Shown here piece by piece: positions 3,601 to 61,973 of a stretch of 64,000 nt of DNA. The translations under genes were made by a program, and so were the position numbers. Source of the stretch: Utricularia gibba (lineage: Eukaryota; Streptophyta; Magnoliopsida; Lamiales; Lentibulariaceae); the NCBI GenBank assembly GCA_002189035.1, contig CM007989.1, forward strand, positions 3,100,001-3,164,000, in the 5' to 3' direction. Below the pieces are notes generated by a model. It did not search any database. It was not told where the DNA came from and saw only the letters and a list, made by a program, of their open reading frames with translations. Positions within the stretch are counted from its first letter, which is position 1, and the number at the start of each line of letters is the position of its first letter.

Positions 3601-6284
3601 ATGACGAAGAATCACGACAACGAAATCGTTGACGAGCCGGAAAGCCTCCGCGCTTCACTTATTTCGCCAGATGAGTCTGGAGGAGGATGCAAGGAAGAAA
3701 GATTCATGGTGTACTTCACTACATTTGTAGCCGTCTGTGGGTCTTACGCATTTGGATCTTGTGTAAGTTCCAGTTGAGCCTTTTTCACGGAATACAAGAT
3801 GATTTGTGCCTGATAGAGAATTGTCCAGGCCGGGTACTCATCACCGACGCAAGATGCTATTAGAGAAGACGTGAAACTATCACTTGCAGAGGTTAGTTGG
3901 ATCACTGCTGGCTTGAAGATGAGTTTTTCTTTCACTGCTTGATCTGTGTTTCTGTATGCAGTACTCTTTGTTTGGCTCTATACTCACTTTTGGAGCCATG
4001 ATTGGAGCAATAACAAGTGGCAAAATTGCAGACCTCGCTGGCCGCAAAGGGTAAGTTCAAATTGTAATAAAAACAGCTTTGCTGCACTGAGAATAAGGTG
4101 CCGAGGTTAAAAAATATATATATGGGGCAGGCGATGCTGATATCAAGTGGATTCTGCATAGCAGGGTGGCTAGCCATTTATTTTGCCAAGGTAATGAGAG
4201 GAGAAGCCAGTGATCGGAGCTCTTGATCGATAATCCGAGACTTGATCCATTTATCCTGTAAATTAACAGGTAGCCACGGTTCTAGATGTTGGAAGATTGG
4301 CTACTGGATACGGAATGGGGCTCTTTTCCTATGTGGTAAACTTGAAGTCTCGGTTGTAATCATACTGCCCTTCAGAGATAACAGCTTCAGAGTTGTTCAG
4401 GTTCCTGTGTTTATTGCTGAAATCTCCCCCATGCGTCTAAGAGGTGCATTGACAACCATAAACCAGGTGAACTCTTAGAGCAGTCAAGATCTGAGTATAT
4501 CCATAATGAGTAAACACAAGTTACTCTTTTTCCTCGTTGGAACTCTGTCTGCAGCTCATGATTTGTACTGGAGTATCGGTATCGTTCATAATCGGAACGG
4601 TGCTAACATGGAGGACGCTAGCATTAGTTGGTAAGTCGGTCAATGTTCATGCAATTTCCCCATTCAATCAGCTGAAAGCAGGAGTTCAACTTTTGCAGGC
4701 ATAGTCCCTTGTGCTATTCTGGTGTTAGGCCTTTTTATCATTCCGGAGTCTCCTAGATGGCTTGTAAGTATCGTTGAATATCGCATTCAGTATCCATATG
4801 TGCATCTTTCTGTAAGTCCATAAATCCTCCCTGGTCAGGCAAAACAAGGACGGCAGAAAGAATTTGAAGCCTCCTTGAAGAGACTGAGAGGGAAGGATGC
4901 AGACATCTCTGAAGAGGCTGATGAAATTCAGGTAGGAAAATCAGTTCTTTAAACAAATTCATACCGAGTTTTTATGAGAGATTTCCTCCACAGGATTACA
5001 TAGAAACTCTAGAGAGACTTCCCAAGGCCAAAGTTCTTGATTTGTTCCAAAGAAGATATCTAAGCTCAGTCACCGTACGGATGGATGCATTCCTTTCTGA
5101 AAATTCTGACCCCTTAACCAAAAAGATTTGCCTTGACAATTTGCAATGCTAAAACAGATCGGAGTCGGCCTCATGATCTGCCAACAACTTGGAGGAATAA
5201 ATGGAGTATGCTTCTATACCAGCAGCATATTTGAGTCATCAGGTAAAACTGAAATAAGGATGGTCACTGCATAAATGCAATGCTTGTTCAAATAATGGAA
5301 TCTCCACACAATGTGCAACATTATGAGCTGGGGTAAACCGGGGCCATATTAAATCTTCTATATTATGTAACAGGATTCCCAGCTGATATCGGTACAATTA
5401 CATACGCAATTCTCCAGGTTGTGATCACTGCAATAGGGGCCATTTTGATTGACAGGGCTGGAAGGAAACCTCTCATAATTGTAAGATTCACCCATCCTTG
5501 TGTCTTGTATTTGTAACTCCATTCAATGTAACCAACATCAGTGCAGATTTCTGGAGCTGGCCTGGTCCTCGGTTGCCTGATGACGGCTGTTTCATTCTTT
5601 CTCAAAGTGAATACTCGCACTCCCTTGCTATCTCAGTTTTCTCCTTTTTTTCAGCAATTTGATTGAGAAAAATGAGTTCATGCCCTTTATCAGGATGCCA
5701 AACTTGCAACTGAGGCTGCTCCAGCGCTTGCCGTCACTGGTATATTGGTAATCTTATTTCCCATCAATCCAGTGACATGTTTTTACTAGAGGTCTTTCAC
5801 TTGGAAAAAATGCAATCTTCAGATCTACATAGGTTCCTTTTCTATCGGAATGGGAGCTGTTCCGTGGGTGGTGATGTCTGAGGTTCGTGTCTCTAAGCTG
5901 CTTTAGCGGGAAACTTCCGAGAAATGACTAAGAACTGAGTTCATATTGCAGATATTTCCAATAAACATCAAAGGAGTAGCAGGCAGTTTTGCAACACTAG
6001 TGAACTGGTTCGGAGCATGGGCTTGTTCTTACACTTTCAACTTCCTCATGAGCTGGAGTTCCTATGGTAACAAAAAATACAAAATCTTCGTCTACTTCGC
6101 ATAGCTTTCGATTCTTACCTCGGGAAAGTAACAGACATAGTTACAAGTCCGGTTATGTTTTTTTGCAGGAACATTCATTCTTTATGCAGCAGTGAATAGT
6201 CTTGCTATTGTGTTTGTGATCAAAGTGGTCCCTGAAACTAAAGGAAGAACTCTGGAACAAATACAGGCAGCCATAAACTCGTGA
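3601..6284 (+). CDS. ERD6-like monosaccharide transporter (MFS), frame broken by one base between exons 3 and 4
   Basis: Seventeen exons encode a 12-helix MFS sugar carrier of the ERD6-like/ESL group, which moves monosaccharides by facilitated diffusion or proton coupling, usually at the tonoplast. Visible marks are the N-terminal [20 protein letters not shown], the GRKG loop between helices 2 and 3, [35 protein letters not shown] and [11 protein letters not shown]. Exon 1 is 3601-3762; the last exon ends in TGA at 6282-6284. Exons 5 to 17 join cleanly. Exon 3 ends at 4050 after two bases of a codon, but exon 4 (from 4131) is read correctly only from its first base, so one base is missing, probably a G at the GG/GGG exon start. 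It is either an assembly deletion or a real lesion. The gene converges on the DNase-like gene downstream. Confidence 0.85.
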
Positions 6285-6810
6285 TTTCTCACCAGATTCA
6301 CAATTACCTCTATCTGTTTTTGTTGTTCCCCTGAACTACTGTGCCTTGCATGAATTGAACGTGAATACTGCACCGCCCTGTACTCCAATTTAAGCAGATG
6401 AATATATCTGATAGTATTGAATCAGAATATAAAACTATCAAACTAGAGAAGAACATAGAGAACTGAAGCATCACACAGTGATGCTGATTCCTATGCCATT
6501 TTCCACATCCATTCCAATGTTGATTTTTTTCGTTGAACAATCGATGGTTATTTCTGGATCACCGCCGCTGACGAGTACCTTTGAATGCAGGGAGATCCTT
6601 CGCAAAACACATCGAAGAGATCTCCGCCGCTGACGACGTACTCGAGAAACCCGTCGCCGCTGGCGGCAATGGTATTGTGCATATTTCTCGAATATAAGTT
6701 AATTTTTTTAATATCAATTAGCGGGATTTTAATATCCACCATGTTCGGTAGAAAATAAAATGTAATTATATGCCAGTCCACATGTCGTAATACGATTGGT
6801 TGGTTCTATT
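6285..6810. other. Convergent intergenic region with a short repeated GC-rich motif
   Basis: Convergent 3' ends flank this 526-bp stretch. Positions 6561-6670 are GC-rich compared with the surroundings and repeat CCGCCGCTGACGA-type text at about 6562-6573 and 6624-6635, plus a variant CGCCGCTGGCGG near 6655. The minus-strand frame here reads FLEYVVSGGDLFD, faintly like kinase subdomain V, but it is too short to call. Confidence 0.3.
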
Positions 6811-8680
6811 CTAGCCTGAGCTTGTACGGAGAAGATGAAGCGTCTTCAATGCCTTGGTTCTATTCTTAGCCGACCTTGACCTTGGAGTGTGGCAATGCGG
6901 CTCCGTACTACTAACGGTGGGCACCTTCATCACGTCCACCTTCACTACGTGATGATCAGAGGTCCCTTTTGATGAAATCACGGAGTATGATCCGGGGACA
7001 AACTTGTACGGCGATCGCGACGACGACAGTAAGTAGTCGACTCTGGTTCCGTACTTGCACGTCCCTTGTACACCTTCGTGTTGAAGACAGCGAGATTACA
7101 AACGAATCCAGACCATGAAGCGAGGTTAGTTTCAGTATGTACTCTGTCCCTTGGCGATCATGACGACGGCCTCGCATTCCCCGGCGAAATCCTTGGCGTC
7201 GGTGTATCCCACCTTCTTCAGCTGCTTCATCACCTCGGATTTAGGTGTTGGTTTTCCCATTTCTTCGTAGTACTGTGATGAAATACATTGTCGGGTTTCA
7301 GTCATGAATCGTCGATCAGTATGAAGGTAAATGGTGTATGTAACCTTCACTATGTCTCCCCATCTTTCGTCTGAATAATCAGTTTCGTCGAGGGCGTTTA
7401 GGCCTCCGGCCAAGATATGCGGAACTGTTGTGGATTTGATTATGGCGTTTACCTGCTCCATCCTCCAGTTCTCGTCTAAGTGATCAAGGAGTGTGCACAG
7501 CATGTTGATTTCTCCTGCTTGAGGTACTTCAATGGTGGCCTTCAGTACAATCCTGCATCAGTGACATGTTGACAACTTCTATACTACAAGGAGAAATTAG
7601 AGCTTATGATTGCTCCATTAAAGACGAAGACTCGCAGTGCTGGTACTCTGGAAAGCTTGAAAGCCACTCATCATAGCTACTCTTTCTCCTCTACAAGACA
7701 TCGCCATGTGCAGAAGAGTATTATTCTATTTATTGAAACACCCCACATGGTTGAAAGCATGGCCTTTACTTCAACGAAAGCCAGCCATGAAAATTAGAGT
7801 ACCCTTTTCTCTGTTCTTTCGCCATTGAAGTGCTCTTAAAAGCTTGGTACTTTGATTGACAATCTGGGAAGACAGTAAAAAGGTGAAAAAGGGGAACCCG
7901 ATTCTCACCTGAAATCAGAGTCGTCGAAGATTTTGTGAGCTTTCCATTTCTTGATCGGCCACTTGGAAAGAATGGCGTTTCCGAATTGAGGAGCCCAGCT
8001 CTCGGCAAACACAAATGTCATTCCGAGAGCAGCTGCTAAATCAGATAATGGCTTCATATTCTTCTCCTCCTCTGCCTTCACATCCTGCAGAGCCAAAATG
8101 TCGGCATCCAAATCTCTCAAGACTTCGAAAATGGTTCGATTACTCTGATAATCCATTGCGCTTTTTGAACATAAGGGAGCCTTCCCTTTGAGGATTTTCC
8201 CGGAGCTACTCTCGGGGTTCGAAGGTGAAGGCAAATCCTCTGTCTCGAGGATCAAGCGTCCACTCCTGCTCAACGAAATCTCATTATCGGGTAAGTTGAT
8301 AGACACCCGTAGTGATTTGGAATGGCTGTTTTGATTGGGATGCAGGGGAGAATTTTTGAGTATGCTCCTGGACGAGCTTTCAATTTCCGAACTTCCGACT
8401 CCAAGCTGTTTGATAAAATGCCGCTTTGAGGAACAGCTTGCGCCATGGAGAAAAGGGAAGCATTGAATGTCGCTACCCGTATCGGCCTCACCGAAATCCC
8501 TGGTTCAGTACCGCAACTGATCACCGACGAGGGACCGCAGCTATTCCTATGATCGAATCGGGTTCTTGAATTCGACTTCACGAGTTTCTTGATGACAATA
8601 TTTGGCTTCGACCGGCGGCGGACGCTCCACCCGAGATGGCGGTAGAAGCGGCGCAGGTTGTTGGTGAAAGCTTTCAGCAT
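6811..8680 (-). CDS. DNase I-like endonuclease/exonuclease/phosphatase-fold protein (At3g21530-like), frame broken once
   Basis: The minus-strand gene starts at ATG 8678-8680 (MLKAFTNNLRRFYRHLGW) and ends at TAG 6811-6813. The N-terminus carries IRVATFNASLFSMA, the opening strand of the EEP fold; then SINLPDNEISLSR, a DADILALQDVKAEEEKNMKPLSDLA-type block with the metal-binding Glu region, ESWAPQFGNAILSKWPIKKW, HLDENWR, ILAGGLNALDETDY and near the end GTSDHHVVKVDV, the terminal SDH motif. This matches the plant DNase I-like family represented by At3g21530. Exons run 8680-7909, 7552-7345, 7272 to about 7150, and about 7072-6811. In exon 1 the frame must shift by one base near 8380-8425 to pass from SMAQAVPQSG to RSILKNSPLHPN. 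No splice sites of workable spacing explain it. Substrate is unknown. Confidence 0.8.
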
Positions 8681-9841
8681 TTTTGGGTACACGAAAAAGG
8701 TGAGCTTTGATGGTGTAGCGACGCCATTTTCGGAGGTGCAGCACGAGATGTGCCTGACGGGGAAGAAAAATGAGAATGTAATGAGAGGTACTGTTCACGA
8801 CGAAGATTCTGTAAGGTTGAAACGTGAAGGGAGGTGACGCTTTCTTTTGCTTTCAGGTTGAAAAAGCAGAAAACTCAGCTTTGTTGCTTTGAGGAAGAAG
8901 GTGGAATATATGACAAATATACATACTAAAATATGCCAAAATAATAATATAAAATTAAAAGTCATTCCTAACTCATGTATCGCGCCATTTTTGGGACGAT
9001 ATTGCCCCCACATTGGTAAGTACTCGTTTGGACTTACCAAAGTAATAAAAAGGAAAAAGGATTCCAACTGCCTCCACTCACATTTTAATATTTAAATTTA
9101 TTTAAATACCTTTTTAAAAAAGTATTATTTATTATTTGCAATATATTCCAATTTTTAAAACAAATATTAAACTTAATTATTAACAGTTAACAAGCTAGAT
9201 TATCAGTTAACATGGTCATGTGTTTGAGAATTAAATTAGAAATAATTATTTTTCCTTAGAATGAATATAAAAATGATTTTAAAAATACAGCTGTATCTGA
9301 TTAAGGATATTTAATAATAATATTATTGTTATATGTGAAAAAAAGGAATGAATTTGACTTTATTTCAGTGAAGGAAGGAATGTTGCTACAAAAGCAACAA
9401 CTGTGCAAAATGCCAACTGGCAGATACCTTCAAACAACAAATAATAGACAGAAGGGAATGGAATTTTGCACCAGATTCATAAAAAAATAGATAAATAATA
9501 AAATTTGATATTAATTATTATTTTATTGATAAATAATAGTAATTGGAATTAAATAATATTGATGCAATAAATTGGAATATTAATTAATAATTGCTGTGGG
9601 CTGGAGAAATGGAGGAGAAAATGAAATGCGGGATGGGCCATTAATAGAAGTCAATGGCATTGGTGGCTTTTGAAAGCCCAATTAAATTTGGGCTTAGGGT
9701 CGACCCTCACATTCGCCTGTGTGTATATATCTATATATATAACAAGCTGAATATGAAAAGAGCGATTATTTCTTGCGATTCGCGAAAGCAGATCCTACGG
9801 CTTCCTCGGAGCAACCGTGAAAAGTGATTAACCGGAGGGCT
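8681..9841. other. AT-rich divergent intergenic region upstream of DNase-like and CW-MBD genes
   Basis: Roughly 1.16 kb, strongly AT-rich from 9060 to 9600. Near the right end are site II-like GGGCC/GCCCA motifs (9634-9700) and a TATA-like run, TATATATCTATATATATAA, at about 9722-9740, a plausible promoter for the CW-MBD gene. No gene was found. Confidence 0.45.
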
Positions 9842-11409: not shown

Positions 11410-11728
11410 ATGCAAGCCACTCCACATCAACCGCAACCGGCCAAATCCAGTCTTGGACTGAATTGATCAGGTAGCAACTAACTTGACTCATAGCTTAGAG
11501 CCAGACCCTTTGTTGTTGCAGCTTAAAGCTAGTTGTTGTTCATCCTCTGAACAGTTCCAGCTTTTGGACATGCAGATTCGCTGTTTCGCGGCATTCTGCT
11601 TACTCAGATGAGAACCTCAAAAAGAACTTGAAAAATCTTGCATAAAATAAACTGGGGCTCTCAAAGTGTCATCCAAACAAGTAGCGTACAAAACTTGAAT
11701 TCAAAAGCATCACCACTCAGAACGATGA
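11410..11728. other. Convergent 3' flanks of CW-MBD and RRP4
   Basis: This 319-bp stretch lies between the two stop codons and should hold both 3' UTRs. A TTGCATAAAATAAA stretch near 11638-11651 could serve as a poly(A) signal for the plus-strand gene. Nothing else is seen. Confidence 0.4.
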
Positions 11729-13356: not shown

Positions 13357-13424
13357 GCGCCGGAACCCCAATTCCCTGGTCTCGACTCCAAACCCTTGTA
13401 AAACCCCTAATTCCGCATCAGGAA

Positions 13425-18687: not shown

Positions 18688-18699
18688 TTCTCAGTTTCT

Positions 18700-20757: not shown

Positions 20758-22104
20758 ATGGGATCTATGATCGATAATCATGGAGAAGATGATCTGGAGT
20801 CCTCATCTTCGATATTTGTTTCAGATGTCTGCGAAGGATCTCACAGTTTCAAGATCATGAATTACTCTTTGGCAAAATCACAGGAGATTGGGAATTGCGT
20901 TTCTTCTGATGTGTTTCATGTTGGTGGTTGTTCTTGGAGGGTCAATTTCTACCCTAATGGATTCAACGTTGATGTTGCTGATTACATCTCGGTTTATCTC
21001 GTGTTAGTTTCAGAGGCGGCGGATAAAAGGGCAATCTTTAAATTGTTTCTTGTGGATCAAAGCACCGGGAAGAAGTACAATTATTTCAAGCAGAAGCACG
21101 CCATTAAAGTCCATGGAAAAAACTTTGCATGGTGAGTTTGTTTCTTTCTTTTGAGAGTGTTGTTAAAAAAATGAATGTTTTGATGGAATGTTCATGCTGT
21201 TCTTAGGGGGTGTGATGAATTCATGGAAAGAAGTGTGTTGGAAACTTTGGGATTTTTGAAAGATGATTCTTTACAGATTGGTTGCTCAATTTGTGTCGTT
21301 CAGTCTCAAAAGACTCTGAAGATCAGTTCAGTTGTTGTGCCTCCATCAGATATCACTCATAATTTACTACATTTGTTGGAAACCGGGAAGAAGCGGATGT
21401 TAAATTTGATGTTGGTGGAGAAGAGTTTTCGGCCCACAAGTTAATTCTCGGTGCTCGTTCTTCGGTATTCAATGCGCAGTTTTTTGGATCACTGAAAGAT
21501 GAAGGAGTTATTCCGATAAAAGTTGAAGAAATGGAACCATCTGTGTTTAAGGTGATGATGTTTTAACTCGTGAACGTCTGCTTCTCTTCTTAAAATTCTT
21601 CCCTTTTCAATCTTGCAGGTCCTACTGCACTTCATCTACTCAGATGGCTTGCCAAATTTGGATGAGCTCAATGAAATGTCTTCAACCTCAATGTATGAGC
21701 ATCTACTCGCTGCTGCGGATAGATATGATTTAGATCGACTCAAGCTCCTCTGCGCAACTCATCTCAGTAAAAAAATCTCACATGATAATGTTATCATGTT
21801 ATGGGAACTAGCAGAACGGCATCATTTACCTCCATTGAAATCATGTTTACTTGAGTTTGTTTCGTCACATGACAATCTTCAAGGTAAGAAGGTCTCTGCC
21901 GTCTCCCTTTTTCATATATCTCATTTCTGAGTACTGTGACACAAACTATCTTGAGTTGGGATTTTTCATCAGGGAATCTTGAGCGTATACTGTTTGTTCC
22001 TTGCAGCCGTGATGGAAACTTCTGGTTTCCAACAGATCAAGCTAAGCGATTCCTGGTTGATCGCAGATTTTCTTCATCGTCTTCTTGCTTTGAAGTTCTT
22101 GTGA
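20758..22104 (+). CDS. MATH-BTB protein A (BPM-like CUL3 adaptor), single-base frame break in the BTB domain
   Basis: BPM-type proteins bind substrates with MATH and CUL3 with BTB to direct ubiquitination. Exon 1, from ATG 20758, encodes the MATH start: GSHSFKIMNYSLAKS, NCVSSDVFHVGGCSWRVNFYP and IFKLFLVDQ. Exon 2 opens WGCDEFMERSVLE, then DDSLQIGCSICVVQ. In the BTB domain the expected ETGKEADVKFDVGGEEFSAH is reached only if one base is added in GGGAAGAAGCGG near 21386-21392; the sister gene B has one more A there. After the break SAHKLILGARSSVFNAQFFG is intact. Exon 3 (from 21619) gives VLLHFIYSDGLP and AADRYDLDRLKLLC; exon 4 ends LLALKFL with stop at 22102-22104. Either a pseudogene with one lesion or a consensus error. 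Confidence 0.82.
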
Positions 22105-22388: not shown

Positions 22389-23731
22389 ATGCATTCGCCG
22401 GCGTCGATGGAGAATCAGCGCCAGAAGAAGCCGTCCCGTATTGAGACGTCTTCGGCGTGGTCGTCGGATGTCTCCGGCGGATCTCATGTATTTAAGATAA
22501 TGAATTATTCCTTAGCCAGAGGGCTTGGTGTCGGGAACTGCATATCTTCGAATAAGTTTTCCGTTGGTGGTTGCCTCTGGCAGATTAAGTTCTACCCTGA
22601 TGGTTATAACAACAGTGCTGTGGATTATATCGCAATTTTCTTAGCATTAGTTGCAGGTGAATCAGACGAGAAGGCGACTTTTAAATTGCTTCTTCTGAAT
22701 CAAAGCGGAGAGAAATACGCGAGTCTGGAGCAACAGGAAGCCATTAAATTTAGATACAAAAACTTCGTTTGGTAAGTTTTGAGTCCTGTGATTGGCGTTT
22801 TGTGTTTCAGTTTTGAGTGTTTTTTGCTGGGCTTCGCTTACAGAATACTGTACTGATGTGAAAGTTGATATTTTGGCTTCAGGGGAAGTACAAAATTTAT
22901 GAAAAGAGCTGATTTGGAAGCTTCTCAGCTCCTAGGAGACGACTGCCTGCATATTCGTTGCGAAATTCGTGTTTTTCAGTCTCCAAGGATTTCAAAGATG
23001 GATTCGATTGCGTTGTCCCCATCAAATATCAACCTTCATTTGAGACATTTGTTGGAAACTGGAAAAGAAGCGGATACCGATTTTCTAGTTGGTGGGGAAG
23101 TTATCTCAGCTCATAAGTTGGTTCTTGGTGCCCGTTCATCGAAATTCAGAGACCAGTTCTTTGGATCCAAGAAGGGTGAATGCAGTAACTGGACGAGAGT
23201 TGAAGGGATGCAAGCTCGCGTCTTTAAGGTGCTGGAAGTAAATAATCTTCTGATTCATCTGAAATCCATCGTCTTCTTAAATTCTTCTCCATTTCACAGG
23301 CTTTGCTTCACTTCATATACTGCGATGAGTTGCCATCCATGGATGAAAAGCTTACTCCAACCTTATGGTATCAACACCTAATCGCAGCAGCTGATCGATA
23401 CGATTTAGATCGACTGAAGCTGCTCTGCGCCGCTCGTCTCAGCAAGGAAATCTCAGCAGTTAATGTTGTTACAATTTGGGCACTCGCTGAGCAGCATCAA
23501 GTAGCGCAGCTCAAAATAAGGTGCCTTGAATTCATTCTTGAAAATAACAATCTTCAAGGTGAGATGATGCTTCTCTATCTCCATTTTGTATTCTCCATTC
23601 ATTCATTACATTGTATCCTTTTTTTTTCTGTAGAGGTGATGGAATCCACAGATTTTCTGGAAATGAAAGGAAGTGATCCATCAAAGATTGCAGAGTTCCT
23701 TCAAAGTCTTTTTGCTTTGAGATGTTTGTAA
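22389..23731 (+). CDS. MATH-BTB protein B (BPM-like CUL3 adaptor), intact
   Basis: Four exons, 22389-22771, 22883-23228, 23300-23558 and 23634-23731, give an uninterrupted 361-residue protein. The MATH part has GGSHVFKIMNYSLARGLGVG, NCISSNKFSVGGCLWQIKFY and KATFKLLLLNQSGEK; the BTB domain has LLETGKEADTDFLVGGEVIS, AHKLVLGARSSKFRDQFFG and ALLHFIYCDELPSMDE; the BACK-like helices follow as AADRYDLDRLKLLCAARLS and VVTIWALAEQHQ. It is the only one of the four local copies whose frame is clean, so it is the best candidate for a working CUL3 adaptor here. An ATG seven codons in (MENQRQKK) is an alternative start. Its stop lies 48 bp from the stop of the convergent copy C. Confidence 0.9.
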
Positions 23732-23779: not shown

Positions 23780-25064
23780 TCAGCATTTCCCAGCAGGGGG
23801 CTGCACGTCGTCATTATTCTTCCAGGAAACAACCCCTTGAATGATATCTGCTAAGGCTGGATCACTTTGTTTGAGAAGCATGCAATCATCAGTTCGCATC
23901 ACATCTGCAACCAAATCATGGCACATGAATGAGGAAGAATTTGAAAAGATGTGCTGTTGGGGATTAACTAAAATGCAATTGCCTTGCGGGTTTTCAAGCG
24001 AAGCTAAAAGCTTGATACACGATGATTTTAATTGGGAGGAACGATGCCGCTCGGCTAATGCCCAAGTTGAAGCTACGTTATCTATGGAGATGTTTTTGAT
24101 CAGATGGTCAGCACAGAAGGGTTTGAGTCCTTCCAATTTGTATCGATACGCGGCGGAAAGAAGATTCCGGCACATCGAGATTGGAGCTCCATCCAGAGAC
24201 GGCAGGTCTCACAGTATATGAAACCAAGCAGAGCCTGCACGATTGGGAGATGGAATGGTTTCAAGGCCAACAAAAGGCATGCATGAGTTGAAGAAACACC
24301 AACCCTAAAAACTGCTGGTTCAATTCCTTCTACTTTTATGGGATCTGCATGCGCATGTTTTGCTGGTCCAAAGAACTGGGCACAGAATGATGGTGAACGT
24401 TCGGCGAGAACCGGTGTATGGGCCTGAAATCGTTCTCCGTCGACATCAAACTTCACATCTGCGCCTTTCCCACTATCCAGAAGAAGTCGGAAGTGAGCAT
24501 CGATGTCTGCAGGAACATACGTTGTGATGGAACTGGAAATATTCGACGCCTGAATAACAGTAATGTCACAGAAAATCTGGAGGCAATCATCTTTCAAATA
24601 TTTCCCGGACCTGACTTCTTCCCTTGATACGAAATTGCAGCAACCCCTGCCATGAAAATTAAAAGTATAAACATTATACAGTAGCCAAGGAAATGGAACT
24701 CCAGTTGGTCTGCAAGATCTCACCAGAGATAATACTGAGTATCATTATCTGGAAATTTCCGTGGCTCAGCTGTCACAAAAACCTTGTGCTTTTGGCCTCC
24801 TCTTTTGTCTAAAATAGACAGCTTATAATTAGCCCTTGTATCCGATCCACCAGCTGCCAATGTCAAAAACAGTGAGATATATTCAGAATCTTTATCTCTG
24901 CCGTCGGGATAGAGGTCGATCTTCCATGCACGACCACCAACATGAAACTCATCAGAAGAAATGCAATTCCCATGTCCAAGACCTGTCACCAAGGAATAAT
25001 TTTTTACAGTGAAAACGTGAGAGCCTTCAAACTTCGTTGGTTCCCATATCGAAGATGTGCCCAT
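23780..25064 (-). CDS. MATH-BTB protein C (BPM-like), frame break plus GC donor at last intron
   Basis: Starting at 25064, exon 1 encodes the MATH domain (FEGSHVFTVKNYSLVTGLGH, GNCISSDEFHVGGRAWKIDL, ANYKLSILDK). Exon 2 has CNFVSREEVRSGKYLKDDCL and the BTB start LLLDSGKGADVKFDVDGERF. Exon 3 begins ALLGFIYCE, but the family continuation (LPSLDGAPISMCRNLLSAAY) appears only after a one-base shift near 24212-24219. Then YRYKLEGLKPFCADHLIKN is intact. The last intron, 23982-23905, should begin GT but reads GC, and it is stop-free and 78 nt long, so retained transcripts would still be translated into VMRTDDCMLLKQ. Stop is 23780-23782. The lesion leaves it uncertain whether this copy works. Confidence 0.8.
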
Positions 25065-25142
25065 TGAAAGAGATATTTTCGTTCGATGAATATCAAGGTG
25101 ATCCTTTATACAGTAAGCTGTGGAAGTATGTGATTACAAGGC

Positions 25143-25860
25143 ATGCGAGAAACTGAAAGGTCTCTCATCAAGCTTCGGATGAAGCAATGTGATGAGCCCC
25201 AGGAAGATAATGAAGTGTATTTGAAGAATGATGAGGAGTTTGTTCAAGTGAACAAATTAGAAAGAAAGATGATTCCACCAGTACCAATGACTAGGAGCAA
25301 GACAAAGATGGTTGAAGATACAGTTAAGGGTCTACTCAATACCATTGGAATCAAACATGGGCTTGAAGACATCCCATCAAAAGAGCTCAACTAATTGAAG
25401 ATGGACTTAACTTAGAGCATTGGGCTTGTTAGACTTTTCTATTTTATTTAGTTTGGGCTATGTAATGTTAGAGCCCAATTCTAGAGTATAAATACTCTAG
25501 AGATGTACTATTTCAGGATCTTTGGTCATTTTATGTATCTTGTGAGGATTCCCCTCTCCTTTGAGTGCTTGAACACTCTTAACTTATCAAGCTTTGAGCT
25601 TGTGGCGTTCTAGGATTATCACTTCCAATCAATCTCTCTTTTCTGAAGTGTGGCTCCTAATTTTCTTTGTTTCGAAGTCTGGTTGCAAGAGATTTATTCT
25701 CTTGAGGGTAGACTTGGGTGGGTTCTCTTCTAAGCTTCAAAATCACCTCTTTTTTGTGGGTTGCTAATCTCTATAGATTAGAGGGTCACATCACAATGTC
25801 TGCATTGGAATCTCAACACTCGTCATGAATACACACGCAGTGAGAGTAGTCGAATCGTCA
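25143..25860 (+). mobile_element. Ty3/gypsy-like retrotransposon remnant: end of polyprotein plus LTR-like sequence
   Basis: The frame 25143-25394 contains PVPMTRSKTKMVEDTVKGLL, the basic GPMTRxRxK-like tail that ends many plant Ty3/gypsy polyproteins, and stops at 25392-25394. Directly after it comes LTR-like text, about 25410-25860, with a TATAAATA core (25487-25494) inside a 22-bp perfect palindrome (25480-25501), then polyadenylation-type AT-rich DNA and GC-balanced leader-like sequence. No protease, reverse transcriptase or integrase was found upstream; copy C starts within 80 bp on the left. I read it as a 5'-truncated fragment. I could not locate both LTRs or a target duplication. Confidence 0.5.
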
Positions 25861-26743: not shown

Positions 26744-28129
26744 CTACTTCATCCACGCAGAGGGGCGAAATTCTGGAGTTTCGGCCTGTCCCTTGTAGCG
26801 GATACCGGAAGTTAGAAAATCCAGAGTGCTATACGGATCGGCTTCCCGCATCTGCTTGAAATCGCCTGTTTGCATTACATCTGAAGAAAAAGACATGATG
26901 ATACTCAGTTCTATGAAGGACCCTCGTGAGCGAACAGCATGCATGCTTTGAGAATGAGTTGCATTGTTTACCTTGAAGATTTTTCATTGAAGCAAGAAAC
27001 TTAGTGCAGTATGTCATCAAGGTGGGGCAATGGTGTCTATGCGCCAGCACCCAAGTGGACGTAGCATTAGTCACAGAAATGCTTCCACAAAGTTCAGCTG
27101 CGCAGACAAGTTTGAGTCTGTGGATGTCATATCGATGTGCGGCAACAAGTAGATCTCGATAGATTGATTTCTGCTCTAGCTTTTTGAACTCACTCGAGTG
27201 TGGTAATTCATCGCAGTATATGAAGTGAAGCATAACCTGTGAGACAGAAAATGAGAATAGTTAAGAGAAGGCAGGCAACTGGGATACATGGATCTGAGCA
27301 ACTCCACCTTAAAAACAGAGGGTTTCATGTCATGAATTGTGATGGGCTCAGCGCCTCCTTCATCTCTTATTAATCCGAAAAACTGGGCACTGAATACAGA
27401 AGAACGTGCACCGAGAATCGCCTTGTGAGCTGGAAAGTGGTCTCCTTCAACATCAAAAATCACGTCTGCCCCCGTAGCACTCTCCAACAGATTCTGTAAA
27501 TGAAAGGAGATGTTCGAGGGGGGAATGGAATCGGGTTATTCTTGACAGGAAAGGCGGTAACGGTCTTTGCACAATTAAAAACATAGATCGCGCATCGAAT
27601 TTGGACATAGTCGTCCTTCAAGAAATCACTTTCCTCCAAAACAGATCGTTTCATGAATCTCGTTGCTCCCCTGTGAGGAATATAAAGATATGCTTCAGTG
27701 AAATCCATTAGGGATCTAAAGAAAACGCTTTGATCATAACTGCTCAGGTCATTGGGAAGAAGAAACTCACCAACGACGGCATGCTCCGAACCTGTGGGCC
27801 TCCGGTGAAACAAAAACTTCGTGGTTGTTACCTCCGGTTTGATCTAAGAGAAAAAACTTGAATGTCGCCCTTGTGCCAATTTCCCCAATTACACATGATA
27901 AATATATTGCAACATGATCAGATGCATTCATGAACCCCGCTGGGTAGAATTCAATCTGCCACCAGCAACCACCAACATGGAATTTATCAGACGACATGCA
28001 TTCTCCACACGCTGTCTCTTTGGCCAGGGAATAATTCCTTATGGTAAAAAGGTGAGATCCTTGGAACGACTCTGGTAACCACACAGAGCATGTTTCCCCT
28101 GGCTGAAATGGCTCGTAGTCATCCTTCAT
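26744..28129 (-). CDS. MATH-BTB protein D (BPM-like), frame break in a six-base G/C run
   Basis: Start ATG 28127-28129 (MKDDYEPFQPGE) follows a TTTGTGTTTGCAG acceptor-like sequence, so a 5' UTR intron is possible. Exon 1 has FQGSHLFTIRNYSLAKETAC, CMSSDKFHVGGCWWQIEFYP and TFKFFLLDQTGG and ends in RRW with a GT donor. Exon 2 has GATRFMKRSVLEESDFLKDD, then breaks frame at the C6 run (plus strand G6 at 27518-27523). One more C restores SNISFHLQNLLESATGADVI-type text and leads into FPAHKAILGARSSVFSAQFF. Exon 3 has MLHFIYCDELPHSSEFKKLE and AAHRYDIHRLKLVCAAELC; exon 4 ends FRPSAWMK with stop 26744-26746. Apart from one base it looks complete. Confidence 0.82.
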
Positions 28130-39759: not shown

Positions 39760-42700
39760 TTTTTTTTTTCTTTTCTCTCGTTCCCCTTCCGATACTTCTT
39801 CTTCTTCTTCTCGTTGTAAAGCCGAGCAGAACCAATTTCTTCCTCTGATTATTTTGTTTTGGGGGGTTGCGGAGCAGTAGCATTTATAGACAAATTACTA
39901 ACACGGATGGATGCGGCGAAACGGAGCAGTGGCCGCGGGGTGTAGAGAGAGAGAGATGGAATCTAAGTATCTAACCGTTAAATAAACAATTATTTAATTT
40001 AATGATAAAATAAACAGCAGGGCCATGGTTGTTAGTTAATGCTTAAATCATGATTTAGTTTATTTTGATTTAGATAAATGTATTTTATGAATTTAGAAAA
40101 TTATTCATGTTTGATTGATATGTTTAATTTATTTGGATTTAAAATGAAAATATGTTTGATATATGAGCATAAAATTATATATATGATGAATTTATATATA
40201 AAATTACTAATATATCTTTTAATTAATTAAAATTAATTATCATACATATTAGTTTTTTTATTATTTTACATTTAATCAAGCATCATATAACATAAATCAC
40301 AATGCTTAATTGAAATAATATTTTGTAACAAGCATCATGTAATATATGCGAATGCTCGTCTTCAAAACGAAAACTCACATTTTAACAGCAAAAACGAAAA
40401 CCCACTATGCAGTACTCGTATTCTCATTTTTATCTTTGTCTTTATCTTTATGTTATTCTTCATCATCATCTTCTTCTTAACAATTAGTTTTATTCTTCTT
40501 ATTCTTCATCATCTTGAACCTATGTGAAGAGATCTGTAACATATCTGAAAAAATACCAACTTTCAAAAAGATTGATGAGTAGATTTGCATTAGTAATGCT
40601 TGCAGGTGCATTCTCATACATCTGCATTCAAATTCGTAGTAATGTGAAAGTAAAATTAAAAGCTGCAACCCTTGTTTATCTAAATCGACTATCCCCCCTT
40701 GATTTAATTTAACCCAGCTTGGTGGGTTCTCGTCGAGTATATAGGTGACAAGCGGGTTTATTATATATAAATTTATATAATAAACACGAATCAAACTCTC
40801 GACCATCAAGTTTCAAAAATAAAGATACTATCAATTAAGCTATAGACATTATTTATACTAATCTACGTCTGTATATATATGATATAGGCATGGGTTATGC
40901 GTTGTCTGCATATTTTCAATCGAGCACTCAAGCCTTATCTATTTATTTACATCGATTACATATTTTTGTTATTTAAATTTGTATTATTAGTTCAAAAGAA
41001 AATTAATATAAATTGATAATTTTAATATTTTTATGCATTAGTCAAAACAAAACAAACCAATAATTTAAGATTATAGTCTTTACTAATTTCATATGATTTA
41101 TTTTAACACTTTTATTTTGAATTTTATAATTTTTTTAAAAATCATCATTTACTTGTTAAAAAAATAAAAAACGACACTTACGCATTAGAGAATTTTGTAG
41201 TAATTTCATAAAAAATAATATAAAATTATTTTATATTAACATTATCTACGTAATATTTAATTTGATAGGATTTCAACATATGGATGTAATTTATACATAA
41301 TTCATGTACGTGTATTTAATTACTATCAAATTGTTTATTTTGTAGATAGTATTAATATAAAAAAATTAGGATTTTTAAAACCCTGGACCCGACAGATTGA
41401 TCAGAACCCATCAAACCATGACCCGACTCATACCCGTTATATATAAGTACCAATCACCGGGCGGGTCAACCTGCTGATCGGGCGGGTTGACTAGGAACCG
41501 TGACCACCCTACTTTGGAGTCACAACACTTTTAACTCGCAATGAATGAAAACCTTTGACTAAGTAATCAATGTGCCGAGTTCTTGGATTAAAATATGCTG
41601 ACCAATCCCAGAGTCAAACTCTCAGACCAAAGAAAATAAACACGTCAAAGATTGAGTTGAGTTGATCTTGCAGGAGTAGTAGGCACGTCCCCATTCCAGT
41701 TAACCCATCCCCTTCATTAAAAAATAACTGCGACTTGCCCCTACATTCTTCCTAATGGTTTCCACTAAAAAATGGCCACCATGACTTTGATTGTGTGAGA
41801 AAATTATAGATTGAATGTATCAAAAATTGATCATAGTATGTAATAGAGAAAAACTCATGATAATTACTTCTCGAGTAGACCTAATACCATACCCCGTTTA
41901 TGGGTAAAATTTACTTGTAATAACATCAAGTGATTTATAAATTATTTATTTATTTTGAATGTTTTTTTTTTAATTTTATGTACATAGATTTATTCAAAAA
42001 CATATCTTCTTTGTATTTTATTAATTAAACTCAACGACCACTAGGGGATGTAACCCATGCTTATTCCATACGCTCTTTGAATTTTTCAAAGGAGTAGACA
42101 ATAGCCTATACCACTAGGCTACAACCAATAGGAAACTTTGAGATTAGGGGTGGTTGAAGTTTTGCAAATGCGCTTTTTGGAAGATTAGATTCAATTCCTT
42201 GGTGGGGTGGGGTGATTATTCCATCAATCATCCCGCATTATAAAAATTCCAAATATTCCTTTTTCAACTATTTCCGAATGATTGTTTCACTTTAACACGA
42301 CCGGAAATATTGTTTTTTTTAACAATAATATTCTTTTTTCAACCCCAACAAAAAAAATTTAATTGCGGCTTGCTTGTCCCTGAAGTTTTCGTCTGGGGAA
42401 AAAAAAGAAAAATTCATTCAGAACTGTTGCTTTTGTTTTTCCGTTGTGTCCACTCTGGTAATAAAGTATTGGTTGGATCCCTTTCTGTTGTCTTGCTGTC
42501 GCTATGTGTAGCAATCTGATTGGGCGGCTGAATTTAAAATGATTAGGCACGTCTAGAGTCGTTGCTAGCGCACGTGCCATCTGGGCAAAAGGACAGATAC
42601 GCCCAATATTAAAATGTCATTACGAATAATTACACCAAAAGCTCCTTTCCAGTAACCTCGCCCCTCGCCCAAAACCCACTCCCATAGCAGACATAGCAAC

Positions 42701-45700
42701 TCAGTTGTCGTTACCCAACCACACTTAACCCTTATTTTGTATTCAATAATACACGTTAATTGACATGTTCTGTCTTAATAATTTTCGAAAGTGATTCTAT
42801 TTAATATTTGAAGATTCTAATGTTTAAACGTTCACTAGTAAAATAAAAAATTTAAATTTCGTTATTAACTTGATAAATTATTGATTTTTTGTTTTGATGA
42901 GTAAGTACAAAATTTAATTAGAAAAAATTATTATTTATTTATTTTTATTTATACTCTTCATGGTAGTGGGGGCTCATCCGAGTTTGTGGCCACACTAGTC
43001 CACTTGTGTTTTGGCTCGGGAACGTTTTCAAATTTACTTTTCATGTGGTTTTGAAATTTTATAATATAATTTTATATTATATTACAAAAAAATTTTATAA
43101 TATCAAACTGATTCTATTCATATAATCTTAAAATGAATATTATTTATTAATTTGAAGCACAACTTGAAATTATAGAACGTGACCTTACTATCATATCATA
43201 TATTAGATATCCAGATCATTTTATTATTTAATTATTTAATGATAATGAAACACCAACTTATATCATTAAAATACCGAATATTTTAAAATACCAAAACCAG
43301 AGTAGCTCACACATGATAATAATTGGTGTATACCTGGAATAATATTAAAAAAATTCATTTCTGACAAATCACGATTGGTGTTTATTCCAGGAATCCAAGT
43401 AAATCACGTGATAAATAATTTAAATTTCATGGTGCACGTGGGCATGTCGAAATTTTTCAATTAGGACTAGTACCTTCCTATGCCACGATCTAGCCATCCA
43501 CTTATAGGTGATAAAGAGTCATTTTTTATTTTATTTAAAAGCGACCAAGTGATAACAACCCCTCCCTCCATCAAAGATGCTTTTTTTTCCCCCTCATGGG
43601 GCTTCTTCACTTTAGGGATCAACCAAGAATGAAATAAACACCAAAGGACTATAGTGAGTTACCTGGTAAAATTGGAGAAAATGATGAAAACAAAGTGAAA
43701 TACAAAAGCGAAAAAACAATGAAATGATTGGAAAACAAAATTAGTAGTAAATTTACTTTGAAAATATAAGACACAAACTTTGGAATAGGGATTAAAATAA
43801 GGCCCCAAAGAAAGTTTACTAAATAATTAAACCAAATGATAGCCATGAGTGAGCCCCACGTGTAGAGTAAAACTATAAGGATATTTTATTTTAAAAAATT
43901 ATATAAGATAAACATCGTTTAAATTTTGTAATTATAGTTCGTTATATCTAGTTATTTTATTTTATAAAAATTTTAATGTTAAAAGATTTCAATCATGGAA
44001 AAAGAGTAGGGCATGTTGGAAAAGTAAGTATAACGCTAATTCTTAGTAACTACTTTATGGGATTCGATTCTAGTCCATATTATGTAGTAGATTCGACTCG
44101 TTTTAAAAGAAAAAAAAACGCGTTTCGTATCAGATTAAATTTCGTCGTGAACCTTAGGTTATGCACAAATGTAACTTAGGGAGGGTTATGAGGATGCCTT
44201 GAGTGGCTTTGCCTCCTTTAGTGCATTTCATGGAGCCATGTCCAAGTTTGGGCACGTTCGCCACAGTTATGCTCTCCAACCGACGTCCAAAGAAGTATAA
44301 AATGGACAAGCGAAAAGCAATATCACTAAGCCTTTATTGCACTCCCCACATGAAAAATATAAATATAAAAAAAGGACAAGAATTCTCGTGTCCAATTTGA
44401 CCCCAGACTCATCATTGGAAGCTCGGCTGTCAAGTTGAGAATCCAATAAAGGCCAAAATCTGGTTCACATGTGGTGGATGCAGTCCCAAACTTCGGAATG
44501 GTCTGGAAATTAAAAAAATGTGAACTCAAATACGATCTGGGTTGCAAGCTCAAGTAACACGAAAGAGTGATATAGCATCTAGGGAATCGACAACCCCGTT
44601 TGGTGTGATGTGGTGTAATTGCTTCTTAAATCATTGAGGGAATGATTTAAGTGTACTGTGAAATGCATGGGTTCCACTTCCAACTAATGTCGAAGTGTGG
44701 AAACCTAGAAGGCTGAAGACACGGTTCAACTTCTTGGTAATAATGTTGAAATTCAGGATTAAGGGTTGAGGGAGCGTTTAACATTACGTTCAAATACACA
44801 AAAAATATGAATTACATTAAAAAGATTAAATTCAATTAATTACTAGTGATTTATAATTTTTTTATATAATTGAATATTTTACTTTATGTTCCATATTAAA
44901 TTTAACTGGTTACTAATAATCTTTAGTTTTATTATATGTTTGATTATTTCAATTTTATTTTTGGAGATGTGATTGTGTATTTTAACAAATAATTCAGGCT
45001 AAGTCGGTCGGGTCATATGATCGAGTCAATCCAATCAGAATAAGCAGTTATGCGCTGCAATTTTGTGGAAGTTTTTTACAGTGTAGATCACTGGTCCTTG
45101 AGATTATGGATGTCGGCTGAGGAAAGGTGAACGCGGTCGCGAATGCGTGGGGACTAAGAAAAAAGAAAGGGAATTTGCGTTATTACACGACAGGGAACTT
45201 TGAGAGGCAAAGAGGGTCAAGGATCCAAAGTAAGTATGCTCATGGGTGGAGGGAAGAATGGGTTACGTTCAAAATCAGAAGTCTATTTCAGTGGGGGAGC
45301 CTTTGGTGAAGTCACGTCAGTTGGCAATTTCAGGCACTAGCGTATCACACCCAGTTGAAAAACGTACGTCCTAAAGATAACGAAGCATGCTGCCCATTCG
45401 AATCGATTATCACTTTGGAGATCTTGGAAAGAAGCTCCATTTGCGGATGCAAAAGGACTAGAAGACAACAAGGGTTTGTCTCCATCCAAAAGTAGACCGC
45501 CAGTGCATGCTGTAAATCACACACCCACTGCCACTAGGAATTCAGTCAACCCAAAAATGAATAGTAATCAGATGAAGACAATTCGGCTGCAGAATGCATC
45601 TCAAGTCTTCGACTGCCCACAGTGATGGCTATGTTGTTCTTTTTCCCGGTAAAAAAGAATCTAAGACAAGTGTTCAGTTGTCTGTTTTCAGCTGAATTGC

Positions 45701-52466: not shown

Positions 52467-52479
52467 GAAAACGAGCTTC

Positions 52480-57135: not shown

Positions 57136-58663
57136 ATGGGAGCTTTAGATGAGTGCCCTTATGACTTGGAACTGGATAATGAGGTGAAGTTTGTGGGTGG
57201 TGTGCGGCGAAGTTTTGAGGACCAGCCGGAGATGTTGGCTATTGAAGAAGCTGTCAAAGTGCTTCTGCAGGGTCTAGGTGAAGACGTCGATCGCGAAGGT
57301 CTGCAGAAAACGCCTCGTCGCGTTGCCAGCGCTCTCAGGGAAGGAACTAGAGGTGGCCTTTTTTTCCAGTTAATTGTATCTCCTGCTCTATTATGTTGCT
57401 TATTTCCTGTTTCCGTTTTGCCGTCTGTGCTGATAAGGGCGATGCGCTTGGTCAGATCAAAATCTTCTGAATATGCCGAAGCTTCACATATTATGTTAGG
57501 AATAGCATTCATTGCTTAGGAAGTCTTGTGGTTTATACAGGGCATGGGGGTAGGTATAAAGAATTGATCAAGTTGACACTGAAAATTTAACTGGGTTTGG
57601 GAATGGGAGAGATGTATATTTGTTCATTGTTTTCATTAGCGTTAAACCTCTTTATGCATATCCAGGGTATTCGCAGAAAGCCAAAGACATTGTAGAATCT
57701 GCTTTATTCCCTGAAGCCGGATTTGTACGCAGAGTTGGGCATGCCGGAGGGGCTGGAGGACTTGTTGTTGTCCGTGATCTTGACCTTTTTTCTTACTGTG
57801 AATCTTGCTTGCTGCCATTCCGTGTCAAGTGTCACATAGGGTATGTGCCTTTTGGACAAAGAGTAGTGGGACTTAGCAAGCTCTCTCGTGTTGCCGAGGT
57901 GTTTGCGAAACGATTGCAGGATCCATATCGATTGGCCAATGAAATATGTTCAGCATTGCAGCACAGCGTCAAACCAGCTGGAGCTGCTGTGATCTTGAAA
58001 TGTCAACATATTCAATTTCCAAATCTTGGATCAGCGGCATTCTTCAACCCGAATCACGATGGTTGGGCTACAGCATTAGTGAAGTCAGGCTCTGGGGTCT
58101 TCCTTGATGACTTTGCAGAAGTTTGGAGTGACTTGTTCAGTCTTTTGAGATTCCGAGAAGTTGAGGACATCCACTGTACGGGTTCCGAAAAGAACAAGTC
58201 TTGGTGCCCATGTCGTACGTTTTGCAAGATGGGGGAACCTGATCCTTCAATGCTTAGAGCGGTATCTTCCATACTTGGTTCCCTTGGGGAAGATCCCTCG
58301 AGAAAAGAACTTGCGGAAACATCTGCCTGCTTTATCAATTGGCTCATGAATTTCAAAAGCTGTAATCTGGACTTGAAGTTAAATGAGTACCCTCGAATGA
58401 AGATGGATTCCAAAAATCTGAGTAGAGACTCGCTTCAATCTGAAATGAATCTCTCTTTCTGGTCACAATGTGAACACCACTTACTTCCTTTTTATGGCAT
58501 TGTCCACATTGGCTATTTCGGTTCTGATCAGTACGGGTCCAACCCTGTTGGAAAATCACTTCTACAGTCAGTGGTGCATTTCTATGGCTTCAAGCTTCAG
58601 GTACAAGAAAGGCTAACCAGACAGATAGCTGAAACTGTTTCCGCATTCTTGGGGAAGATGTAA
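57136..58663 (+). CDS. GCH1: GTP cyclohydrolase I (plant bipartite type)
   Basis: Two exons, 57136-57352 and 57666-58663, encode 404 residues. Plant GTP cyclohydrolase I converts GTP to dihydroneopterin triphosphate, the first step of folate pterin synthesis in the cytosol, and consists of two fused GCHI-like halves, neither active alone. The first half has EEAVKVLLQGLGEDVDREGL and QKTPRRVASALREGTRGYSQ, then YCESCLLPFRVKCHIGYVPF, VGLSKLSRVAEVFAKRLQDP and KPAGAAVILKCQHI. The second half begins near LGSLGEDPSRKELAETSACF and has FWSQCEHHLLPFYGIVHIGY and LTRQIAETV. The canonical CEHHLLPFYG zinc/catalytic motif survives only in the second half; in the first it is CESCLLPFRV. This division is normal for the plant enzyme. 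Both exons keep frame. Confidence 0.93.
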
Positions 58664-59220
58664 TCGTAGTTGTTGAAGCTAGTCACACTTGCATGATGTC
58701 TCGAGGGATCGAGAAGCTCGGTAGCATTACTGCTACAATTGCTCTCTTGGGTAGATTTTCTACCGATTCCTTGGCAAGGGCGAAATTTTTGCAGATGATT
58801 CCAAGCTCGGGAAGTGCTGAAAGCTGAGCCTTTTCATTTTTTGGCCCAGCAGCATTTTTGCACTATTAATCGAGCTTCTTTTCTTCTTGAATAAAGTCAA
58901 TGAGAAGTAGGCAATGCTCTCATCAGACTCTCTTTCTATGGTGCTTCCTATTTGTGCTAGCTGTAAGCATTAAGCACTGTAGCTTCAGTGCCACTTATTT
59001 TGTTCATCTTGATTCATGGGAAGCTTTCCAAGACTTTATACATAATTTTGGAACGCTATTAGTTCCTTGCTTTATCATTGTTGGTTTGATGCTATTATTT
59101 GTGCAATCATTCTTTAGTTTCTGCCATTCCCTGCTAGTTATTTCGTTAATTACCTTGTCAAGGGGAGAGGAAGTTTAGCAATTGCATTGGCATATTGATC
59201 CTCGTAACATTACAAATGCT
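58664..59220. other. Convergent 3' flanks of GTP cyclohydrolase and TMK
   Basis: About 560 bp between stop codons of two convergent genes. The 92-codon plus frame at 58900-59178 is Phe/Ser/Leu-rich and most likely chance within 3' UTR sequence. Confidence 0.35.
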
Positions 59221-61973
59221 TCACTGGGATGTTGTTTTACTGTTGCCTCTGTCATCAAAGAAACTACTAGAAAATGATGAATGCAAGCCTTCATCGGCTT
59301 TCCATTTCTGTAGAACCTGTGGTAAGCTCATCTGCATATCAGTCCCAAAACTGTCATCGTTGTCTAGGACTGGTTTCCATTGGTCTAGCAGAGGTGAAAG
59401 TACATTGACAACGTGGCTCATATCAGGCCTTTGGTGGGGCTCTCTGACTGTGCAGTATCCGGCAAGCTCGGCCAATTTACAAAGACACTGGAAGCTCTCT
59501 TCGTCTAGAGTTGCACGAAGAACCGGGTCTTGAGCTTCCTTAATAGCTTCTTTGTCCATGAGGAGATGCCGGAACCATGCCACGAGGTGACATTGCTCGT
59601 CAGGCAAGGATTCGTCAAGGGCTTTTCTTCCGGTGATGATCTCCATGAGAATCACACCATACGCATAGACGTCCACCTTCGTTGTTACTCTCCCTGTTGC
59701 TGTTAGGAATATGTGCAGAGAAGTTAGTAAGAAGCTCGTGGTAGCAAGGATTTATGAAGAAGGATGCAGAGTCATACTGGCATATTCCGGAGCGAGATAC
59801 CCGAATGTTCCGGCCAACCGTGTTTCGACGGAATAGTTTCCGTCGGGAGCAGACCGTACCAAGCCGAAGTCGGAGACCTTGGCTCTCATGTCTTCCCCAA
59901 GGAGAATGTTTGACGGCTTTAAATCTCGGTGAATAAAGCTTTGTTGTGCCAAACTATGCAAATACTCTACTCCTCTGGCAATGTCCAACGCAATGGTTAC
60001 TCTTTGGTTCCAACTCAATGGAGGAACTCCCATGTCCTTCCAATGGAGCAGACGCTGATCCAAACTCCCGTAAGGCATGAATTCATAGACCAAGAGGCGA
60101 TGGCTGCCGCTCTCACAGAACCCATGAAGCGACACCAAGTTCCGGTGCCTCACCTTCTTGAGAACTTCGATTTCTGCCTTGAACTCGTGAAGACCCTTGT
60201 TACTGATCATGGAGGACTCCATTCTTTTGACTGCTATTTTTGTGCCATCATGGAGCTGCCCCTTGTACACCACGCCAAATCCCCCTCTTCCAAGTATGTT
60301 CTTCTCACTGAAGCAGTTTGTTGCTTCGTCTAGGACTTCGATTCTTATGCATGCGCTTCCAACATCATGCAAAAGGTAATCTTTTTTTTCAACGCCAGCA
60401 GCGGTGCTTGAAGTTGAGTTCTGTACATTATCTTTGGGCATGTCCAGGCTTACGACACGCCGGTTTTCCACATTCCCTTGTTTCGTCTGCTTTGCCCTCC
60501 GTCTTGTGTAGATGAAGACGAGCACCACTCCAATGGCTACTAAACCAAGAACAATGATGATGATCACGGTGGATAAAACCATAGAGGCTCCTCCAATTCC
60601 TTGAGCTGGGGATCCTTCTTCAAGATCTTTCCCAATGTTCACGTTCCCAATAACGTTCAACTTCACAGAAGGAGCGAATGTGGGTATTTTCCCTGAAAGA
60701 TTGTTGTTGGAAAGATCCAGAATCTGCAGATGCATCAACATTGTCAAGCTCTGAGGGATGGTACCCTCGAGTTTATTGTCATTTAAGAGCAAAGTTTTCA
60801 GTTGAGGTAAAGATGCATAAGCTGGAGATATGGTTCCCGTCCAGTTCTGCTTAGCAAAATTGATGACTGTTACACTTCCATGTTCACAGACAATGAATTT
60901 CCATTGCTGGCATGGATTGTTCCCAACCCAATTCTCCGCCAACGCCATCGGATAGTTCATCGCTTCAGAAACTTCAAGTAAAGCAGTGATTTCTGGTGCA
61001 CAAGGACCAGGATTGGGAAGACAGAAGTTGTTGTCAGTTCCAAGTTCAACTTGCACTCCTGGTGCAAAACTAGGCATTGGACCCTGAAATTTGTTGTGCT
61101 GCAGAGCAACATATTGCAGACTCGGGAGCTTAGTTAGCGAATCAGGGACCACTCCCGTGAGAGAATTGTCACGGAGGAGCAGATCAGTAAGCTGTTTGCA
61201 GGAAGAAAGATCAGGAATTGGGCCATTGAAGTTGTTGGAATGGAGCCAAGCAACTCTAAGCTGTGTCATGGATGCAAGAACATGAATGGTGTCTGAGAGC
61301 CCGATGTTCTGGTTGTTGAGTGACAGGTTTTGAATAGGGGAATTGGAAAATGAAGCTGGCAAAGGCCCTGAAAGATTGTTGTAAGTGAGCCTGAGATTTA
61401 GAAAATTGGGTAGCGATCCAAAGATGTCAGGGATTTCGCCGGAGATGCTGGATTTGCTGGCTGAGAAACTCGTAAGAGAGGATGAATCGGCTAGGGTTTC
61501 AGGGATTTTCCAGGAGGGAGATTATTGTTGTTGCCGATGCTGAAAAACTGTAAGCTCGTTAACCCAGACAAGAAATCCGAAGGAAAGGAATCGAAACCAT
61601 TATCCTCGAGGTTCACTTGTTCTAGCGATGTGAGCCCCGACAACGGCGGCAATTGTCCGGTAAAGCGATTATGTTGGAGGCTAAGGGATTTGAGGCCGGA
61701 GAGTTGGTTAATCTCCGCAGGAATTGTACCGGAAAGTGACATGGAAGAAAGATTAATGGATGTAACTTGGCCGGAGGAATCGCAGCTTACGCCCTTCCAT
61801 TTGCAGAAGTCGGAGGCGGTGGTAGTCCATCCAGCGGGGGTGGGGAGAACGGATTGCGCGAAAATGGACATTACTTGCGCGTCGTCCGCGGAGACACCGG
61901 GGAAGAAGAAGGTTGAGGTGAGTATCAGGAGAAAGGCGGCTGGAAAAAGGTTGCTCTGCCCCTCTCTACGCAT
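59221..61973 (-). CDS. TMK-type LRR receptor-like kinase, one-base frame break in the LRR region
   Basis: Two exons, 61973-59778 and 59699-59221, with TGA at 59221-59223. An N-terminal signal peptide ([20 protein letters not shown]) is followed by two LRR blocks separated by the [20 protein letters not shown] insertion typical of TMKs, a transmembrane helix ([20 protein letters not shown]) and a kinase domain with [37 protein letters not shown] and YLAPEYA, then [20 protein letters not shown]. TMKs work with auxin-binding proteins at the plasma membrane and in auxin-controlled growth. The frame breaks at 61510-61514: CCTCCTGGAAAATCC lacks one T relative to the expected [14 protein letters not shown], then LLR continues intact. 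The kinase half is unaffected. Either a consensus error or a null allele. Confidence 0.88.

Follow-up and report, generated by a model that had tools for sequence, protein, structure and literature searches.

When several genes in one short stretch of a plant genome have each lost their reading frame by a single base, are the genes dying or is the sequence wrong? This question is raised by a 64-kb stretch of the carnivorous plant Utricularia gibba (hereafter the window: positions 3,100,001-3,164,000 of contig C1, which is 8.5 Mb long; the 516 contigs of the assembly total 100.09 Mb). A sequence-only reading had described six genes in the window (a sugar transporter, a DNase-like gene, three MATH-BTB genes and a TMK-type receptor-like kinase) as off frame by one base each, all as a deletion, and had favoured long-read consensus error over independent pseudogenisation. 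Judging from frame changes in unrelated gene families and from differences between near-identical contigs, we conclude that most or all of the six losses are very probably residual long-read consensus errors and the genes probably intact in the plant. Support for this reading is strong overall, albeit indirect and short of proof for each site.

One apparent frame change per gene

Each site was checked in two ways: by reading the DNA in three frames and by a frameshift- and intron-aware alignment that permits frame changes of one or two bases, the final alignment being rerun with stops inside inserted codons penalised. As references we used five foreign homologues per gene for the sugar transporter, the DNase-like gene and the TMK gene, and, for MATH-BTB genes A, C and D, the intact gene B from the window itself. 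The top listed homologues of the TMK gene and the sugar transporter are largely from Lamiales (Handroanthus, Paulownia, Orobanche, Erythranthe and Genlisea among them). The genes and sites, in window coordinates and with the evidence for each in brackets, are as follows.

3601..6281, + strand: ERD6-like sugar transporter gene, 17 aligned exons (exon boundaries; alignments to P0121, P0122, P0124, P0126, P0131; homologue search)
4051..4131, + strand: site 1, intron 3 and first base of exon 4 (phase reading; alignment; homologue spacing)
6814..8680, - strand: DNase-I-like (endonuclease/exonuclease/phosphatase) gene, four exons, otherwise intact (PF03372; homologues; alignments to P0241-P0244, P0249)
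8366..8372, - strand: site 2, -1 frame change in exon 1, at 8368 (three-frame reading; alignments; motif check)
20803..22101, + strand: MATH-BTB gene A (aligned part), four exons, one lesion (Pfam MATH_2; frames; alignment to B)
21385..21393, + strand: site 3, -1 frame change in exon 2 of gene A, at 21388 (three-frame reading; alignment)
22407..23728, + strand: MATH-BTB gene B, intact, the reference (frames; alignment)
23831..25097, - strand: MATH-BTB gene C (aligned part), one lesion (Pfam BTB; frames; alignment to B)
24207..24215, - strand: site 4, -1 frame change in exon 3 of gene C, at 24210, outside any run (three-frame reading; alignment)
26807..28096, - strand: MATH-BTB gene D (aligned part), one lesion (Pfam BTB; frames; alignment to B)
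27518..27528, - strand: site 5, -1 frame change at 27528, at or next to the six-base run 27518-27523 (three-frame reading; alignment)
59236..61931, - strand: TMK-type leucine-rich-repeat (LRR) receptor-like kinase gene (aligned part), two exons, one lesion (Pfam LRR and Pkinase; homologues; alignments to P0003, P0004, P0007, P0012)
61512..61518, - strand: site 6, -1 frame change in the LRR ectodomain, at 61514 (three-frame reading; alignment)

For five of the six genes both methods concur on a -1 frame change inside an exon (at 8368, 21388, 24210, 27528 and 61514) as the sole lesion; for the sugar transporter the loss of frame is uncertain, as set out below. That the affected genes are otherwise free of lesions is borne out, with one lesion per gene and no in-frame stop in the alignment rerun. 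Across all 2826 aligned codons there is likewise no in-frame stop, save an artificial one at the sugar-transporter junction in the alignment made without a stop penalty. The sites had also been described as mostly short homopolymers. Five of six do lie in or next to a run of at least two (a run of six in D, runs of two and three in the TMK gene, runs of two in the sugar transporter, the DNase-like gene and A, none in C), but such runs are common in any DNA, so this carries little meaning.

In the DNase-like gene, which matches PF03372 at 7905-8504 and is 71% identical to P0241 over 445 codons, the break falls at 8368 with all five references, and the motif spanning it is present in 100 of 120 listed homologues. 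The loss of frame thus stands, at a position just outside the range of about 8380-8425 first proposed. The TMK gene has both its LRR ectodomain and its kinase domain (68% identity to P0003 over 867 codons); its break is placed at 61514 with four references and at 61517 with one. A single reference out of five, P0002, gave further C-terminal events and the other four gave none. A pattern check of the TMK site matched just 29 of 120 listed homologues and was not used. Within the MATH-BTB cluster, MATH_2 was found in an exon of A and BTB in exons of C and D, and all three genes align along the whole of gene B. Gene D does lose its frame as reported, with the aligned position at 27528, at or next to the run of six (27518-27523). 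The third intron of gene C opens with a GC donor at 23982, where A, B and D have GT.

Site 1 needs separate treatment. The sugar transporter shows near full-length similarity to MFS sugar transporters (83% identity to P0121 over 469 codons), its listed homologues carry PF00083, and no other lesion was found in it. Exon 3 stops in phase 2 at 4050, and where homology resumes with exon 4, at 4131, one base is lacking, so that what had been called a deletion is a phase mismatch at an exon junction, for which a shifted acceptor is the alternative. With introns required to be at least 60 nt long, a one-base deletion was picked for all five references; with introns of at least 45 nt allowed, a shifted acceptor (intron 4051-4105) was picked for four, scoring 0 to 4 points better, the fifth again giving a one-base deletion. 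An acceptor at 4105 implies a 55-nt intron and 8 extra residues. The remaining 15 introns of the gene measure 62-131 nt, and the spacing across the exon 3/4 junction is 12 residues, with no insert, in 120 of 120 listed homologues. On balance, a missing base seems the more probable of the two.

The same data bear on a mixed scenario, which overlaps with our own reading: most sites would be errors and one or two real, chiefly the sugar-transporter junction (as a shifted acceptor) or gene C. The choice of the shifted acceptor for four of five references and the GC donor of gene C are what one would expect under such a mixture, but the slender alignment margin, an intron shorter than any of the other 15 and added residues that every listed homologue lacks all argue the other way, and we regard the mixture as rather unlikely.

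The sugar transporter and the DNase-I-like gene adjoin each other (3601-8680). Handroanthus, Sesamum calycinum and Phlomoides have listed homologues of both genes on a same-sized contig or with nearby locus tags, which suggests that the two neighbours are a conserved pair.

Frame changes elsewhere in the assembly

Six changes out of six in one direction correspond to p = 0.03. Taken alone, the window is weak evidence of a bias; we therefore measured frame changes elsewhere in the assembly, and it is this genome-wide control that carries the weight. The control comprised GRAS (69 rows, 47.4 kb), KCS (53 rows, 27.7 kb) and HSP70 (71 rows, 35.2 kb) genes, 110 kb of matched coding sequence. Frame changes were counted wherever neighbouring matches were separated by 45 nt or less; wider pairs were left out as potentially containing introns, and two adjoining row pairs (GRAS on C3, HSP70 on C1) were skipped for too great an overlap of their query ranges. 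BTB rows were left out of the count, as were the UDP-glycosyltransferase, P450 and sugar-transporter profiles; in these three profiles matches were too partial or introns too frequent.

Of the 29 frame changes counted, 24 belong to the -1 class and 5 to the +1 class (p = 0.0005 for a departure from 1:1); note that class is read modulo three, so that a -1 change could equally be a two-base insertion. The split between -1 and +1 is 13 to 3 in GRAS, 3 to 2 in KCS and 8 to 0 in HSP70. Overall there is one change per 3.8 kb (one per 4.6 kb for the -1 class), and the changes are present on large contigs also, C1 included. The deletion bias reported for the window is therefore found in the rest of the assembly as well. 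An HSP70 gene present on two contigs (C241:16598-18237 and C304:2235823-2237462) shows a -1 change at an identical position in both. If this pair is one event, as is possible, dropping one leaves 23 of 28 changes in the -1 class (p = 0.0009).

Individual alignments of 45 GRAS loci (L009-L053) to their best references yield 26 one-base deletions against 8 one-base insertions, keeping in mind that L039-L053 were fetched for split or partial matches, which makes this a biased sample. Four of the insertions (L016, L021, L025, L043) mirror a deletion in the reference copy. There are also two two-base deletions and three two-base insertions, as well as stops in L043, L049, L051 and L053, and a few events near the N-terminal end of the open frame (L015/L016, L025-L027) may be edge effects. 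Six GRAS breaks at first seemed to fall at one profile position (second match from 135-139), which we considered and rejected as a shared biological signal: the one on C4 is a 67-nt intron, and the other five lie in or near short G and C runs around a conserved stretch, so that the coincidence probably reflects base composition.

Differences between near-identical contigs

Where the assembly contains near-identical sequence twice, the two versions can be compared directly. Over 10 kb, C316 and C412 differ by 4 substitutions and 18 one-base gaps, 16 of which are in C316, along with four longer gaps, all in C316; over 9.4 kb, C416 and C422 differ by 6 substitutions, five of which cluster together, and by 9 one-base gaps, all but one in C416. 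In both pairs together (19.4 kb), 27 one-base gaps thus stand against 10 substitutions, with 24 of these gaps falling in a single partner per pair, either a small contig or the end of a contig. By sequence context, 24 of the 27 are in runs of two or more. Allelic differences are expected mainly as substitutions, and they should not follow one contig; an excess of gaps over substitutions that is confined largely to one partner is what consensus error predicts. The other partners, C412 and C422, have 3 one-base gaps in 19.4 kb, or one per 6.5 kb. Because this is near the control rate for the -1 class, error alone is sufficient to account for the coding breaks. Within such pairs, moreover, the same GRAS gene is found both broken and unbroken (L020 and L021; L048 and L029).

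These comparisons also speak to the notion that the six sites are products of a lineage with a true, strong bias towards one-base deletions. The -1 excess extends to all three tested families, and sections of PMC3728226 discuss the genome contraction of the family, with deletion bias and elevated substitution rates among the possible factors, although in the case of Genlisea the authors prefer selection to deletion bias. Mutation, however, would not place 24 of 27 contig-pair gaps on one partner, and frame changes as frequent as roughly one per 4 kb in conserved coding sequence would inactivate a sizeable fraction of the genes. We consider such a lineage-wide bias extremely improbable. Highly improbable, too, is that strongly deletion-biased mutation in a shrinking carnivorous-plant genome produced real deletions that left many conserved genes with fresh loss-of-function alleles.

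Error or gene loss

Does the window contain more frame changes than the rest of the assembly would lead us to expect? Its 6 changes in about 16 kb of coding sequence compare with 4.2 expected at the control rate, and the probability of 6 or more is 0.25. The 16 kb comprise the six affected genes as aligned plus the approximate lengths of six genes taken as intact: gene B, which was aligned, and five judged by their long open frames, namely a UDP-glycosyltransferase, an SNM1-like, an isopentenyl-transferase-like and a GTP cyclohydrolase gene and one that we take to be an F-box gene.

Imagine, instead, that the sites were genuine recent loss-of-function deletions and that the genes had become pseudogenes independently of one another, the tandem MATH-BTB cluster being the most plausible place for this. 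Three of the four genes in this cluster are affected, gene C has its GC donor in addition, and stop-bearing, pseudogene-like copies do occur in this genome (L049, L051). However, three of the six genes lie outside the cluster, HSP70 and GRAS genes share the -1 excess, and the marks of a pseudogene, accumulated stops and several lesions, did not turn up where the six genes were aligned. A stop would result from about 4.3% of random substitutions in them; by a rule-of-three estimate, neutral divergence since loss is at most about 0.8% if all six were lost. Since the aligned codons hold no in-frame stop, a genuine loss could in each case have occurred only very recently. Six such losses in one 64-kb window, beside a measured error process that predicts four, are unlikely, and independent pseudogenisation is, in our estimation, very unlikely. 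Consensus error is the better explanation, as first proposed, given the -1 excess elsewhere, the one-sided gaps between contigs and the matching count in the window. Single bases would have been dropped in consensus calling, often yet not solely in short runs.

Several points weigh against error as a complete account. Five of the 29 control changes are of the +1 class. The HSP70 break shared by C241 and C304 is unlike random error unless the two contigs share reads or the error is systematic, and it is possibly a real variant. Control loci L049 and L051, with their stops, look like true pseudogenes. In the window, the GC donor of gene C might represent genuine splice-site variation or else a further defect, and the mismatch at site 1 may reflect variant splicing at a shifted acceptor instead of a deletion. 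Finally, for the loci searched, neither a partner contig nor any other second copy with which to show an intact frame was found in the assembly, the searches returning each gene's own locus and distant paralogues (gene D was not searched separately).

Relation to known systems

The sequence analysed here presumably derives from long reads: a PacBio assembly of U. gibba, made with HGAP and with a contig N50 of 3.4 Mb, is described in parts of PMC5793159, where its size is given as 82 Mb as opposed to the 100.09 Mb of the present assembly, and passages of PMC8333044 put the genome at ca. 100 Mb. The indel rate of the assembly is the subject of no title among the matches listed in a literature search. 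That residual indels of long-read-only assemblies split genes is treated as a general problem in portions of PMC12007338 and PMC8812927. Our sites resemble such errors in being one-base indels, with few substitutions and apparent pseudogenes as the outcome; they differ in showing no clear tie to long homopolymers and in occurring also inside multi-megabase contigs. With unitary pseudogenes they share the loss of frame in genes conserved elsewhere, but the aligned parts showed neither a further lesion nor an in-frame stop.

The six genes should consequently not be called dead, a caution for annotation rather than a statement about biology. With around one change per 4 kb in the families tested, counts of lost genes, pseudogenes and gene-family members taken from this assembly would be wrong for many genes unless checked against reads. 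The truncated DCL3 of U. gibba, confirmed by transcripts and 5' RACE according to parts of PMC8333044, illustrates the right precaution for claims of gene loss.

Other features of the window and assembly

Across the whole window there is no tRNA gene and no Rfam match above gathering score. A 604-bp solo long terminal repeat at 25190-25793 has TG...CA ends and is flanked on both sides by an identical 5-bp direct repeat. Many copies with 97-99% identity are found among the matches scored (39 of 419 candidates), and some occur in pairs with a spacing of about 6.1 kb, as full elements would have. The region 40001-45000 is AT-rich, with 21-40% GC per 500-base step and weak dispersed and inverted repeats. 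Among the contigs listed, the sizes of C1, C2, C505 and C507 (8,500,000, 6,192,500, 3,452,500 and 642,500) are exact multiples of 2,500, as if these contigs had been cut at chosen places.

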